Shown: positions 23,648 through 32,345 of the stretch, in pieces
Layout: every line of letters starts with the position of its first letter
Position numbering within the stretch: position 1 is the stretch's first letter
Origin: Stenotrophomonas sp. SAU14A_NAIMI4_8
GTDB lineage: Bacteria; Pseudomonadota; Gammaproteobacteria; Xanthomonadales; Xanthomonadaceae
NCBI RefSeq assembly: GCF_003086695.1
Contig: NZ_CP025999.1
Location: 2,893,680-2,957,679, forward strand
Length of the DNA stretch: 64,000 nucleotides
Direction: 5' to 3'
Made by a program: the position numbers and the translations under genes
The notes under the pieces: generated by a model
Told to the model about the DNA's origin: nothing
Seen by the model: only the letters and a program-made list of their open reading frames with translations
Database searches by the model: none

Positions 23648-24793
<1,146 letters not shown>

Positions 24794-24829
24794 CTACCTG
24801 ACACCGTTCACCGTGAACGGAAACGGCAT
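24794..24829 (-). CDS. Candidate Phe leader peptide (11 aa)
   Basis: ATG at 24829 to TAG at 24794 encodes MPFPFTVNGVR, with Phe at codons 3 and 5. It starts 11 nt after the rplT stop and ends 10 nt before the terminator hairpin. That is the position of pheM in E. coli, whose leader is also Phe-rich. The ribosome site is weak, but ribosomes leaving rplT could reinitiate. Two Phe in 11 codons is suggestive, not proof. Confidence 0.55.
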   Translation of the reverse strand: MPFPFTVNGVR

Positions 24830-24839
24830 CGGGAAGGAC

Positions 24840-25199
24840 TTATGCCGCCAGTGCGCCCTTGGCCTTTTCGGCCAGCGCAGCAAAACCGGCTGCGTCGTGC
24901 ACGGCGATATCAGCCAGGACCTTGCGGTCCAGGGTGATGCCGGCCTTCAGCAGGCCGTTCATGAAGCGGCTGTAGCTCAGGCCGTTGATGCGGGCAGCCG
25001 CATTGATACGGGTGATCCACAGCGAACGGAAGTTGCGCTTCTTCTGCTTACGGCCGATGTAGGCGTACTGCTGTGCCTTGATGACGGCCTGCTTGGCAAC
25101 GCGGAAGACCTTGCGACGGGCGTTGTAATAGCCCTTGGCCAGATCCAGAATTTTCTTGTGGCGGCGACGCGCCTGTACGCCACGCTTAACTCGTGCCAT
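24840..25199 (-). CDS. rplT: 50S ribosomal protein L20
   Basis: 119 aa, with [20 protein letters not shown], then [40 protein letters not shown] and [20 protein letters not shown]. It binds 23S rRNA early in 50S assembly, and in E. coli L20 also represses its own operon. It follows rpmI by 11 nt. The stop lies just before the Phe leader. Confidence 0.99.
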
Positions 25200-25210
25200 T
25201 TTTCAGTTCC

Positions 25211-25408
25211 TCAGAGGTAAGGGAGCATACGATCCAGACGGCCGGCGTCTTCTGCACGGACGTGGTTCGTCTGACGCAGGTTACGCTTACGCTTGGTCGC
25301 TTTCTTCGTGAGGATGTGGCTACGGTTGGCGTGGCCGCACTTGTACTTGCCCGAGGCGGTCTTGCGGAAACGCTTGGCCGCTGCCCGGTTGGTCTTGATC
25401 TTGGGCAT
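25211..25408 (-). CDS. rpmI: 50S ribosomal protein L35
   Basis: 65 aa with [40 protein letters not shown] and [20 protein letters not shown]. The start at 25408 is set by the universal MPKIKT N-terminus. It lies between infC and rplT. The 254-nt gap to infC holds a strong hairpin at 25591-25615 and otherwise nothing recognised. Confidence 0.99.
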
Positions 25409-25590
25409 TGCAATGTCCTTGATGGGGGTGACCCTGGTTTCTGACTGATCTGGCGGTGGCCATTGCCACTCTTTCCGTCCTGCCATGATCGGCGTACGAC
25501 CCGTCCTGGGTGGGTCGAGCCGGGCATGATACAGGCAAATCCGCCCCGCCACCAGCCCTTTCAACCGTTTCCGTACCTTGCGGCAAAAGC

Positions 25591-25615
25591 AAAGGGGCGC
25601 CCGCGGCGCCCCTTT
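25591..25615 (-). promoter_or_regulatory. Strong hairpin between infC and rpmI
   Basis: AAAGGGGCGCC-CGC-GGCGCCCCTTT is a perfect 11-bp stem. On the minus strand only TGCTTTTG follows, a weak U-run. It could be a partial terminator, an RNA processing site, or part of an L20-type control element as known upstream of rpmI in E. coli. Confidence 0.55.
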
Positions 25616-25662
25616 ACCCTGAACCGTTCAGCCAGGCGCCCCGAAGGGCGGCCTGCCAGGCC

Positions 25663-26190
25663 TCAGGTCTTCTTCTTCGGCGCGATCATCATCACCATCT
25701 GGCGCCCTTCCAGACGCGGACGGCTTTCGATGACGATGTCCTCGCCCAGATCGGCCTCGATGCGGTTGGCCATTTCACGACCCAGTTCCTGGTGGCTCAT
25801 TTCACGGCCACGGAAACGGATGTTGACCTTGATCTTGTCACCGTCTTCAAGGAAACCACGCATCTTGCGCAGCTTGATCTGGTAGTCGCCCTCGTCCGTG
25901 ACCGGACGGAACTTCACTTCCTTGATCTCGACCTGCTTGGTCTTCTTCTTGGCCTCGCTGGCCTTCTTCTGCGCTTCGAACTTGAACTTGCCGAAGTCCA
26001 TGATCTTGCAGACCGGCGGATCGGCCTGCGGCTGGATTTCGACCAGGTCCAGGCCTTCATCTTCGGCCATGGACAGCGCTTCGTCGCGCGACAACACGCC
26101 GATCATTTCTCCGTCACTGCCGATCACGCGGACGCGCGGCACACGGATTTCCTGATTCCTGCGGTTCTGTTTGTTGTCAGGGGTGCTGAT
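25663..26190 (-). CDS. infC: Translation initiation factor IF-3 (ATC start)
   Basis: 175 aa. IF-3 binds 30S subunits and rejects wrong start codons. The N-domain ([20 protein letters not shown], then [20 protein letters not shown]) and C-domain ([20 protein letters not shown], ending APKKKT) are complete. I place the start at an ATC (26190), because GGGAG stands 8 nt before it and the protein family starts near [12 protein letters not shown] at 26205 is in frame but lacks a ribosome site and itself overlaps that Shine-Dalgarno. Rare non-AUG starts let IF-3 repress its own translation in other bacteria. Confidence 0.95.
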
Positions 26191-26253
26191 ATTACGTTCT
26201 CCCAAGGGTATCGAACCGGCCCGGGTGCCTATGCCCCCGGACCGGACCTTTGC

Positions 26254-28155
26254 TTACGCGCCCTCGGCCTGCAGCCGCTCGATGAAGGCCTGCAGACTCA
26301 TGCTGCCCAGGTCTTCGCCAGAACGCGTACGCACCGCCACAGCCCCATTTTCCTTCTCGCGGTCACCGATGACCAGCAGGTAAGGCACGCGCTGCAACGT
26401 ATGCTCGCGGATTTTATAGCCGATCTTCTCGTTACGCAAATCCGAGCTGACGCGGAAGCCTTGCTCCGCAAGGGTTTGGGTCACGCCCGTGACGTATTCA
26501 GCTTGGGCATCGGTGATATTGGCCACCACTACCTGGGTCGGCGCCAGCCAGGCCGGGAACTGGCCGGCGTGGTGCTCGATCAGGATGCCCAGGAAGCGCT
26601 CCATCGAACCGACGATGGCCCGGTGCAGCATGACCGGGTGCTTCTTCTGGCTGTTCTCGTCCACGTACTCGGCACCCAGGCGGCCGGGCATCATGAAATC
26701 GACCTGCATGGTGCCCAGCTGCCAGGTGCGGCCGATGGCGTCCTTCAGGTGGTACTCGATCTTCGGGCCGTAGAAGGCACCCTCGCCCGGCAGCTCCTGC
26801 CATTCCACGCCACAGCTGGACAGCGCCGAGCGCAGCGCGCCTTCGGCCTTGTCCCAGGTGGCGTCGTCGCCCAGGCGCGATTCCGGACGCAGCGCGATCT
26901 TGATCTGGATCTCGTCGAAGCCGAAGTGCTGGTACACCGCCAGCGCCTGCTGGTGGAACGCGGTCACTTCCGATTCGATCTGGCTTTCGGTGCAGAACAC
27001 ATGGCCGTCGTCCTGGGTGAAACCACGCACGCGCAGGATGCCGTGCAGCGCGCCGGACGGCTCGTTGCGGTGGCAGGAACCGAATTCACCGTAGCGGATC
27101 GGCAGGTCGCGGTAGCTGTGCAGGCCCTGGTTGAACACCTGCACGTGGCCCGGGCAGTTCATCGGCTTGACCGCGTAGGTGCGCTTCTCCGATTCGGTGA
27201 AGAACATGTTGTCCTGGTAGTTGTCCCAGTGGCCGGACTTCTTCCACAGGCTCACGTCCAGGATCTGCGGGCAGCGCACTTCGCCGTAGCCGCTGCTGCG
27301 GTAGACCTTGCGCATGTACTGCTCGACCACCTGCCACAGTGCCCAGCCCTTGGGGTGCCAGAACACCAGGCCCGGCGCTTCTTCCTGCAGGTGGAACAGG
27401 TCCTGCTGCTTGCCGATGCGGCGGTGGTCGCGCATTTCGGCTTCTTCGATGCGCTTGATGTAGGCCTCGAGCTGCTTCTTGTCGGCCCAGGCAGTGCCGT
27501 AGATGCGCTGCAGCTGTTCGTTCTGCGCATCGCCGCGCCAGTACGCGCCGGAAATGCGGGTCAGCTTGAAGGCCTTCAGGAAGCGCGTGTTCGGCACGTG
27601 CGGGCCGCGGCACATGTCCACGTATTCCTGGTGGTAGTACATGCCCATGGCCTGGATGTCGTCGGACATATCCTCGATCAGGCGCAGCTTGTAGTCCTCG
27701 CCACGCGCCTTGAAGATCTCGATCACTTCCGCGCGCGGGGTCATCTTCTTGATGACGTCGTAATCCTGGGCGATCAGCTCACCCATGCGCTTTTCGATGG
27801 CGGCCATGTCTTCCGGCGTGAACGGGCGCTCGGAATAGATGTCGTAGTAGAAACCTTCGGCAATGACCGGGCCGATCACCATCTTCACGTCCGGGTACAG
27901 CTGCTTGACCGCGTGGCCGACCAGATGGGCGCAGGAGTGGCGGATGATTTCCACGCCCTCCTCGTCCTTGGCGGTGATGATGCGCAGGCTGGCGTCCTTG
28001 GCGATCACGTCGCTGGCATCGACCAGCACGCCATCGACCGAACCGGCGATGGTGGCCTTGGCCAGGCCGGCGCCAATCGACTGGGCGACGTCCATGACGC
28101 TGACGGGGTTTTCGAATTCGCGGCGGCTGCCGTCGGGAAGGGTGATGTTGATCAT
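26254..28155 (-). CDS. thrS: Threonyl-tRNA synthetase
   Basis: 633 aa class II synthetase that charges tRNA-Thr. Domains: N-terminal TGS ([20 protein letters not shown]), the editing domain with [20 protein letters not shown], the catalytic core ([50 protein letters not shown]) and the anticodon-binding C-domain ([20 protein letters not shown]). The start at 28155 fits the TGS domain. It heads the thrS-infC-rpmI-rplT-pheS-pheT-ihfA operon and is preceded by a Thr-codon leader and terminator. Confidence 0.98.
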
Positions 28156-28200
28156 CGATAGGGCTTCGTGCGGGGCCCGCGCTGCGGGCTGGAATGCAGT

Positions 28201-28218
28201 CCCGGGCGGACGCCCGGG
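28201..28218. promoter_or_regulatory. GC hairpin in the thrS leader
   Basis: CCCGGGC-GGAC-GCCCGGG forms a 7-bp stem between the attenuator terminator and thrS. It may block or guide ribosome entry, or protect the RNA. Confidence 0.5.
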
Positions 28219-28222
28219 CAAT

Positions 28223-28243
28223 AAAAAAGCGCCACGAGGGCGC
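28223..28243 (-). terminator. Attenuator terminator upstream of thrS
   Basis: On the minus strand GCGCC-CTCGT-GGCGC is followed by six T. It lies 25 nt after the stop of the Thr leader peptide and 68 nt before thrS. The stem is short but all G-C with a clean U-run. Confidence 0.75.
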
Positions 28244-28268
28244 CTGGAACAGGGCCTTCGGGGGCAGA

Positions 28269-28295
28269 TCAGCGATGGGCGGTGGTAGTGCTCAT
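28269..28295 (-). CDS. Thr leader peptide (8 aa, three consecutive Thr)
   Basis: ATG at 28295 to TGA at 28269 encodes MSTTTAHR, with ACT-ACC-ACC as codons 3-5. It lies between a plausible promoter and the terminator ahead of thrS, the arrangement of a ribosome-mediated attenuator. Low charged tRNA-Thr would stall ribosomes on the Thr codons. The Shine-Dalgarno is weak. Function is inferred from position and codon content. Confidence 0.7.
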
Positions 28296-28354
28296 GTCGC
28301 ACGCTCGGCCGGCGCATGGGCGCGGGCCACCTTGTTCCAGAGGGTCAGGCACTG

Positions 28355-28383
28355 ATCTTAAACCAGCGCACGACAAAGCCCAA
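28355..28383 (-). promoter_or_regulatory. Likely thrS operon promoter
   Basis: On the minus strand TTGGGC and TAAGAT are separated by 17 nt. Transcription would start near 28348, about 53 nt before the Thr leader ATG, giving a leader RNA of about 190 nt. Confidence 0.45.
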
Positions 28384-28427
28384 GCGCCTGCGCGCTGGAC
28401 TGAATGGGACCTGCTGGCGGGGTGAAA

Positions 28428-28442
28428 TAGCAATGATTACCA
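28428..28442 (+). promoter_or_regulatory. Fur-box-like site
   Basis: TAGCAAT-G-ATTACCA matches the 7-1-7 Fur consensus TGATAAT-N-ATTATCA at 10 of 14 positions. It is the nearest AT-rich element upstream of the DUF3325-DUF3649-PepSY genes. Iron control is an inference from the match and from these families. Confidence 0.45.
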
Positions 28443-28578
28443 TGTGCGGTCGGCGCAGCCGATGCCCGCCCGCCCCGCTTGCCCAGGACCCCGTGATGCG
28501 CCACCCGCCTCGACCGGCCGTCGCCGGCCCCGCCAGTGTCCCGCAGCTGTCGGTCCCGCGCCAGCACGGGAGCCGCCG

Positions 28579-28875
28579 ATGATCACCGTGGCTCTGTCCA
28601 GCCTGGGCTTCTGCAGCCTGGGCCTGCTGGCGTCGATGTTCTCTGCCGTGGCCTTCTACGCCGCCTCGCCGCACTGCCGCTGGCCGCGCCTGCGCCGCGC
28701 CGGGCGACTGGGCCGGCAGATCGGCCTGGTGGCGGCCGCTGCCGCGCTGTGGCTGTGGATGGCCGAACTGGGCTTCGCCACCGGACTGGTGGTAATGCTG
28801 TGCGCGTGGATTCTGACCGCCCTGCTGCTGCCGGCGCTGGCCGCCTGGCACCGGCCCGGCGTGGAGCCGCGCTGA
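28579..28875 (+). CDS. DUF3325-like membrane protein
   Basis: 98 aa with three hydrophobic segments: VALSSLGFCSLGLLASMFSA, LVAAAAALWLWMAELGF and LVVMLCAWILTALLLPALAA. Size, topology and position beside DUF3649 and PepSY genes fit DUF3325, a small partner found in iron-uptake loci of pseudomonads. GGGAG precedes the ATG at 28579. Its stop overlaps the next start (TGATG). The role is unknown. Confidence 0.65.
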   Translation: MITVALSSLGFCSLGLLASMFSAVAFYAASPHCRWPRLRRAGRLGRQIGLVAAAAALWLWMAELGFATGLVVMLCAWILTALLLPALAAWHRPGVEPR

Positions 28876-31381: not shown

Positions 31382-31392
31382 GGCTCGCCCCG

Positions 31393-32345
31393 GTAGAGTC
31401 GAGCTTGCTCGACTGCTGTTGCATTCGATACACATCGCGCCAAGAGCAGTCGAGCAAGCTCGACTCTACAAAGGCGCGTTCGTGGCCCAGAAGCATCAGA
31501 CGGCACGCCGGGTCCGAGGGCGCGTCCATTCGCTGCCGGGGCGGCTCAATCGCCGACGCGGGCCTTCTGCCACGGCGATGCCCCGGTAGAGTCGAGCTTG
31601 CTCGACTGCTGTTGCATTCGATACACATCGCGCCAAGAGCAGTCGAGCAAGCTCGACTTTACAAAGGCGCGTTCGTGGCCCAGAAGCATCAGACGGCACG
31701 CCGGGTCCGAGAGCGCGATCACCACAAGCGCCGGCTCAATCGCCGACGCGGGCCTTCTGCCACGGCGATGCCCCGGTAGAGTCGAGCTTGCTCGACTGCT
31801 GTTGCATTCGATACACATCGCGCCAAGAGCAGTCGAGCAAGCTCGACTCTACAAAGGCGCGTTCGTGGCCCAGAAGCATCAGACGGCACGCCGGGTCCGA
31901 GGGCGCGTCCATTCGCTGCCGGGGCGGCTCAATCGCCGACGCGGGCCTTCTGCCACGGCGATGCCCCGGTAGAGTCGAGCTTGCTCGACTGCTGTTGCAT
32001 TCGATACACATCGCGCCAAGAGCAGTCGAGCAAGCTCGACTTTACAAAGGCGCGTTCGTGGCCCAGAAGCATCAGACGGCACGCCGGGTCCGAGAGCGCG
32101 ATCACCACAAGCGCCGGCTCAATCGCCGACGCGGGCCTTCTGCCACGGCGATGCCCCGGTAGAGTCGAGCTTGCTCGACTGCTGTTGCATTCGATACACA
32201 TCGCGCCAAGAGCAGTCGAGCAAGCTCGACTCTACAAAGGCGCGTTCGTGGCCCAGAAGCATCAGACGGCACGCCGGGTCCGAGGGCGCGTCCATTCGCT
32301 GCCGGGGCGGCTCAATCGCCGACGCGGGCCTTCTGCCACGGCGCC
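31393..32345. repeat. Tandem array of five 193/190-bp units (A-B-A-B-A)
   Basis: Five near-identical units begin with GTAGAGTCGAGCTTGC at 31393, 31586, 31776, 31969 and 32159, spaced 193, 190, 193, 190 bp. Each contains a SMAG dimer with the 35-nt spacer, the text CAAAGGCGCGTTCGTGGCCC, a variable 25-30 nt part, and CAATCGCCGACGCGGGCCTT. A units carry GGGCGCGTCCATTCGC and GACTCTAC; B units carry GAGCGCGATCACCACA and GACTTTAC. The unit end equals the last codons of the adjacent chitinase gene, which forms the end of the fifth unit. The 1-kb gap 31290-32311 holds no other gene. Confidence 0.95.

Follow-up and report, generated by a model that had tools for sequence, protein, structure and literature searches.

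A Candidate Threonine-Codon Attenuator Upstream of thrS in Stenotrophomonas, Xanthomonas, and Their Relatives

Introduction

The threonyl-tRNA synthetase gene thrS of a Stenotrophomonas genome is preceded by a short open reading frame (ORF) rich in threonine codons and by a GC stem followed by six U, which raises the question of how expression of the gene is tied to the supply of charged tRNA-Thr. Gene and leader lie within a 64-kb stretch of DNA that was analyzed as a whole (the window). An earlier note had read the leader as a ribosome-mediated attenuator of thrS, a reading that gains support here: the Thr codons and the terminator are kept among relatives and an antiterminator is possible. 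The leader is most probably a ribosome-mediated transcription attenuator that senses how much charged tRNA-Thr is available. If this is true, thrS in Stenotrophomonas, Xanthomonas, and their relatives is under a further, widely conserved control by tRNA-Thr charging, beside translational repression in Escherichia coli and the Gram-positive T-box.

Organization of the thrS Leader

The controlled gene thrS (26254..28155, minus strand, ATG at 28155) encodes a threonyl-tRNA synthetase (ThrRS) of 633 aa, and the closest ThrRS among the named loci is that of Stenotrophomonas maltophilia (98% identity). All leader elements lie upstream on the same strand. The most distal is a promoter-like site, TTGGGC-17-TAAGAT (28355..28383, with TTGGGC at 28383-28378 and TAAGAT at 28360-28355). 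The plausible promoter of the earlier note is present to this extent, but it is weak and a consensus scan returned no promoter match at 28383-28355. Across the 127 leaders compared below, -10-like matches are concentrated 60-69 nt upstream of the leader ATG (85 out of 101 matches), and a promoter score of at least 8/12 was reached in 41 out of 127 leaders versus 21 out of 635 shuffles.

Segment 1 (UCUGGAACAAGG, 28330..28341) overlaps the leader Shine-Dalgarno (SD) sequence AAGGUGG (28327..28333) and pairs with segment 2. Between the SD and the AUG lies a hairpin, P1 (28307..28328), which displays covariation in aligned leaders, and GAGCGUGCGAC is found just 5' of the AUG (28296..28306). The leader ORF (28269..28295) reads ATG AGC ACT ACC ACC GCC CAT CGC TGA and encodes the eight-codon peptide MSTTTAHR, confirming the eight codons and the three consecutive Thr codons (ACU ACC ACC, 28289-28281) noted earlier. 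Past the ORF follow segment 2 (CGAAGGCCCUG, 28250..28260), whose pairing with segment 1 runs on to 28243, and segment 3 (CAGGCGCCCUCG, 28235..28246), the antiterminator partner of segment 2. The GC stem and six U that had been described past the ORF are likewise present as an intrinsic terminator (segments 3:4, 28223..28245), with the stem AGGCGCC-CUCGU-GGCGCUU (28245-28227) starting 23 nt after the stop codon and the six U at 28228-28223. The earlier note had mentioned neither the hairpin P1 nor the antiterminator, nor that the SD segment can pair with the post-stop segment.

The leader terminator is the sole terminator-like site within 27900-28700 (shuffles contain a mean of 0.3). Under a rule that requires an ATG start, 5-25 codons, at least two Thr codons (20% or more), and a terminator beginning 5-85 nt past the stop, the leader ORF is the only terminator-linked Thr-rich mini-ORF on either strand of the window, and GTGYGACATGNNNACNACC occurs as a single copy in the 4.48-Mb genome, at the leader site. 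The likely genes beyond the promoter (ORFs from ~28444 on) read on the plus strand, so the terminator probably does not close a minus-strand gene lying upstream. Seven gathering-level covariance-model matches were obtained in the window, all of them tRNAs, and two weak unrelated matches were returned at the leader in Rfam evalue mode. No covariance model of the known Rfam leader families (Thr_leader and the like) fits the leader. A T-box was rejected: 28100-28480 contains no match to one, even with E allowed to reach 5.

The region 23648-28155 (minus strand) contains ORFs read as thrS, infC, rpmI, rplT, and pheS, close together and in the same direction. Because infC, rpmI, rplT, and pheS-like ORFs follow thrS, the switch may also touch the supply of IF3 and ribosomal proteins. 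A strong intrinsic-terminator-like stem of 12 pairs (AUGGGGAAGG..CCUUCCCCAU then UCUUUUUU, 24784-24748, minus strand) lies between the rplT- and pheS-like ORFs and may be either an operon end or a pheS attenuator. Elsewhere in the window, a tandem array (31387-32343) consists of five copies of ~190-bp units, with a 383-bp super-unit present in 2.5 copies at 100% match and an internal inverted repeat around GTAGAGTCGAGCTTGCTCGAC.

Leader Classes and Their Distribution

The upstream regions of thrS were surveyed at 170 loci (L005-L084, which are named, L085-L114, and L115-L174), a survey that among 101 genomes covers 60 out of 61 of the genus (the window genome is included and G014 is not) and 30 out of 40 of the remaining order. 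One of two leader cores was identified in 137 of the 170 loci; among the 33 loci with neither core are distant outgroups, 18 loci from related families, and loci where upstream DNA is scarce or missing. Class I leaders were found by the core GTGYGACATG or by one of two variants, a GATATG form close to it and a single degenerate form, and class II leaders by CACGATCACSATGACG. Since the cores were used for finding the leaders, the core letters (including GUGYGAC within the stretch just 5' of the AUG) and the codon 2 Thr of class II owe their conservation to the search itself, and Thr codons 3-5, the stop codon, P1, and the terminator are independent of the class I core. The distinct leaders comprise 115 of class I, including a degenerate one (L073) that was dropped later to leave 114, and 13 of class II.

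Named genera with class I leaders include Stenotrophomonas, Xanthomonas, Pseudoxanthomonas, Luteimonas, Lysobacter, Thermomonas, Arenimonas, Dyella, Rhodanobacter, and Tahibacter, and the leader of Dokdonella belongs to class II. Within the family, a strict pattern of the class I core was present in 51 out of the 60 genomes sampled. In a sample of the whole taxonomic class it was present in 18 out of 369 genomes, three of them within the family and 15 in unrelated contexts, and viewing of these 15 matches revealed no P1 and no thrS leader. By eye, a tRNA gene whose anticodon loop reads TTGACAT lies directly upstream of thrS in many outgroup loci and in L017, L038, L048, L051, and L069. A stretch of this upstream tRNA gene, GAGCACTACC, is identical to class I leader letters, possibly by coincidence.

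Conservation of the Leader Peptide

All distinct class I leaders but the degenerate L073 have Thr at codon 3 (114 out of 115). This codon is ACU in 109 of the 115, indicating that a nucleotide-level constraint is also acting. Codons 3 and 4 are both Thr in 104 out of 114 leaders and at least three Thr codons are present in 65 out of 114, so that of the three consecutive Thr codons whose conservation was in question the first two stand, and the third (codon 5) is Thr in only 64 of the 115. Strong conservation of only two Thr codons, at the very start of the peptide, counts against the attenuator reading. An in-frame stop follows 5-8 codons past the ATG in all 114 class I leaders (a peptide of 6-9 codons), compared with 0/114 and 1/114 in the other two frames, and AGGUG, AGGAG, GGUGG, or AGGA is found at the place of the SD in 114 out of 114. 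Judged by these sequence patterns, the leader ORF is under selection, and the leader possesses the short ORF with cognate codons that marks a leader-peptide attenuator.

Hairpin P1 and Ribosome Entry

P1 was aligned in 64 leaders (the window and 63 of the 114, picked for diversity). All seven pairs display two-sided changes and 96.6% of 444 cells are paired, a result as high as in none of 500 shuffles. By eye, class II leaders carry a different hairpin in the place of P1 (UCGUaGUUC..GAACaCGA, also in GUCC/GGAC and GCCC/GGGC versions), and relatives with a plain SD (GAGGUGGCAC-AUG; L047, L158, and L159, for example) are without a hairpin and keep the SD letters, the AUG, and the Thr codons. The build of the leader is unusual, with a covarying hairpin between SD and AUG and an SD that is at the same time segment 1 of the switch. 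On the simplest reading, P1 lets the distal SD serve the AUG. A role of the GUGYG before the AUG as an RNA-polymerase pause was considered and set aside as no more than an idea: Y-1 and G+1 fit, but the G that should be at -10 is found at -11, and the distance to the end of P1 is 8 nt (a hand count on the alignment) versus the 11-12 nt given in PMC12288461. For an alternative pause at AU/G the hairpin spacing fits and G-10 does not.

Terminator and Mutually Exclusive Helices

A terminator follows the leader ORF in 105 out of 114 class I and in all 13 class II leaders (118/127 overall, compared with 50 out of 635 shuffles) and is absent by the criterion used in nine class I leaders. The expectation that the terminator would be conserved is thereby borne out, and an intrinsic terminator stands between ORF and gene in the window (28245-28223) as in these 118 leaders. 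Folding predicts three mutually exclusive helices for the window RNA: 1:2 (duplex energy -17.4 kcal/mol), the antiterminator 2:3 (-11.9 kcal/mol), and the terminator stem 3:4 (-9.9 kcal/mol).

The pairings were compared with those of partners swapped between leaders. For 49 representatives of the 105 leaders, native partners pair better than swapped ones for both 1:2 (p = 0.0046 and 0.0019 for two widths) and 2:3 (p = 0.0001 and 0.003), and the controls P1:segment 3, ORF:segment 3, and ORF:post-stop segment display no effect (p = 0.33, 0.79, and 0.80), p-values that are optimistic because the representatives are related. With 19 representatives the values were 0.035 and 0.0046 for 1:2, 0.044 and 0.25 for 2:3, and 0.093, 0.78, and 0.93 for the controls. 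Measured against shuffled post-stop segments of the 19 representatives, the signal is weak (2:3, mean z = -0.44, 13/19 negative; 1:2, mean z = -0.51, 10/19 negative).

The consequence of ribosome position was modeled by masking. The 5' arm of the terminator is predicted to be sequestered to 0.68 when the leader is masked up to a stalled ribosome and to 0.58 when the ribosome has reached the stop codon. This difference exceeds that of shuffles (p = 0.003) and holds in 34 out of 55 leaders (78 out of 118 in a fuller set), and it is gone (0.60 versus 0.62) once the assumption that the stalled ribosome holds the SD is dropped. The loss of the contrast implies either that the stalled ribosome shields segment 1 or that a ribosome at the stop codon produces it by masking segment 2; segment 2 starts no more than 11 nt past the stop in 43 out of 55 leaders, within reach of a terminating ribosome.

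Proposed Mechanism and Alternative Explanations

From the parts of the leader, their conservation, and the mutual exclusion of the helices, all established in silico, we infer translation, stalling, readthrough, the direction of control, and the response to Thr-tRNA as follows. Transcription would start shortly 5' of the SD, and a ribosome would load on AAGGUGG, with P1 bridging SD and AUG, and begin MSTTT. When Thr-tRNA is short, the ribosome would stall at codons 3-5, adjoining the start, leaving segment 2 (28260-28250) free and segment 1 probably still held or shielded. With segment 2 free and segment 1 blocked, the antiterminator 2:3 could form and thrS would be transcribed. When Thr-tRNA is ample, the ribosome would reach the UGA and cover the start of segment 2, which after ribosome release would pair with the SD (1:2). 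In either state of segment 2, covered or in 1:2, the helix 3:4 could form and transcription would end at the run of U. A further effect of 1:2 would be to mask the leader SD from a second ribosome.

The leader peptide might instead govern translation or mRNA stability of thrS through stalling, with a stem that is no working terminator. The nine out of 127 leaders without a U-tract terminator by the rule used would fit such a function, as would the 1:2 pairing that hides an SD. However, the hidden SD is the leader's own, at least 94 nt separate the leader ATG from the thrS start in each of 63 measured loci, and the retention of stem and U tract well beyond the shuffles (118/127 versus 50/635) makes this explanation unlikely. 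It is very unlikely that ThrRS itself binds the leader, either in autogenous repression of the E. coli type or in control of the leader start, with the peptide being incidental. P1, a strongly conserved structured RNA adjoining the leader start, speaks for such binding, but by eye it is missing from the plain-SD and leaderless-looking relatives that keep the Thr codons and the terminator. A mimic of the tRNA-Thr anticodon arm near the thrS start, the mark of an E. coli-type thrS operator, was identified within the last 75 nt before thrS in 0/64 class I and II loci, 0/18 related-family loci, and 12/68 other loci of the taxonomic class by a strict rule (loop YUNGURN, stem of at least four pairs) that describes a single mimic shape and undercounts in outgroups. 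In whole leaders, a 4-bp mimic was found in one of 127 (L022). Shuffled sequences gave a mimic in 7 out of 1360.

Two further explanations retain hardly any probability. Short ORFs and terminator-like stems are common, and a tRNA gene lies upstream in some relatives (by eye), so a housekeeping terminator might stand beside a random short ORF in GC-rich DNA; this is refuted by the conservation of frame, codons, P1, and terminator, and the arrangement is the sole instance in the window with a single genomic copy of GTGYGACATGNNNACNACC. The conserved block might also encode the N-terminus of a longer ThrRS, as the thrS frame of the window is open through the leader (a 687-aa ORF). Neither the open frame nor the phase of leader to thrS is conserved, which refutes such an extension: only 16 out of 63 loci keep the frame open across the leader ATG, and the distance from leader to thrS ranges from 94 to 635 nt with remainders modulo 3 of 0, 1, and 2 in 18, 31, and 14 loci.

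Threonine Leaders beyond the Two Classes

The earlier note had suggested a comparison of thrS leaders within the Xanthomonadaceae; leaders are found there, but the distribution is wider and includes related families and betaproteobacteria-like genomes. A terminator-linked ORF with at least two Thr codons (20% or more) is present in 12 out of 18 loci without cores from related families of the same order, versus at most 3 out of 18 for other amino acids under the same rule. Their peptides include MIIATRTFTG, MARNTRTTTA, MNVSFRTTT, and others, and by eye several of these leaders are apparently leaderless, with a TACAAT-like box just before the AUG. Elsewhere in the taxonomic class, at least one of 68 loci (drawn from 112 matching genomes outside the family) carries a Thr leader; the script found none, having misread the start of L232 (same genome as L268), and other such misreadings among the 68 are possible.

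The genome of L232 (G207) appears to be betaproteobacterial, because GGTTATGACACCGCGAACT is shared with the named Aquincola locus L046. Within the order of G207, GGTTATGACACCGCGAAC occurs exactly in 7 out of 120 genomes, in all seven cases upstream of thrS together with a terminator. A search of 50 genomes of this order for thrS yielded 30 loci, 27 of which were parsed (L278, L294, and L297 were left out). A Thr-rich ORF by the same rule is present in 6 out of 27, one of which (L290) is spurious, since its peptide reads from tRNA sequence, and an Arg-rich one in 7 out of 27. An Arg codon CGA directly before Thr (CGA ACN) was observed in L279, L287, L288, L296, L301, L160, L161, L163, L171, and L172, leaders whose builds differ widely.

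Tentatively, and with more doubt than confidence, an old thrS-attenuation module may be common to the Lysobacterales and betaproteobacteria-like lineages. It would have kept a Thr core (often Arg-Thr, CGA ACU) and a terminator and swapped ribosome entry among SD-hairpin-AUG (with two unrelated hairpins), plain SD, and leaderless AUG; in the SD-hairpin-AUG form, where the SD is segment 1, a ribosome stalled at codons 3-4 would still sit on the SD and block 1:2. The leaders form a natural series of initiation designs around a single sensor, with the SD across a hairpin, a plain SD, or no leader at all, and through this series the effect of initiation geometry on attenuator sensitivity becomes testable.

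Comparison with Known Systems

Attenuation is known in kind and apparently new for thrS in this lineage. In keeping with the earlier note, no description of this leader was found in the open-licence full-text literature searched, although a 2004 survey of proteobacterial attenuators cited in PMC1262725 may mention it; a thrS leader peptide as such was already proposed in Streptomyces lividans (PMC8079986). In the accessible portion of a survey of 5' terminators (PMC2965389), the single mention of Xanthomonas concerns rpsL.

The proposed thrL of S. lividans shares a Thr-containing leader peptide ahead of thrS and differs in being leaderless (MKRVRPFLETTPGFVPAR) with two Thr and no clear terminator, and its peptide is dissimilar by eye (PMC8079986). 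The uORFC-8-2 motif before cysS in the Rhodobacterales shares two conserved cognate codons, a short peptide, a synthetase gene, and a terminator, although its Cys codons are usually codons 14-15 and lie inside the first stem, and both RNA and taxon are different (PMC8632094). Attenuation of synthetase genes is likewise shared with trpS and leuS of Streptomyces and pheST of the gamma-proteobacteria, systems for other amino acids for which the portion of PMC1262725 that was accessible does not mention an SD-hairpin-AUG arrangement. The thrS operator of E. coli shares control in relation to tRNA-Thr; it is described (PMC8058203) as a translational, protein-binding tRNA mimic, which is absent by the strict rule from the 64 class I and II loci. 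With the E. coli trp, his, and thr attenuators (PMC1183508), the leader has in common a cognate-codon peptide, exclusive 1:2, 2:3, and 3:4 helices, and an intrinsic terminator before the gene. Unlike in these attenuators, the gene concerned here encodes an aminoacyl-tRNA synthetase, the leader SD upstream of the ORF doubles as segment 1, SD and AUG are separated by a hairpin, and the Thr codons are codons 3-5 of an eight-codon peptide.
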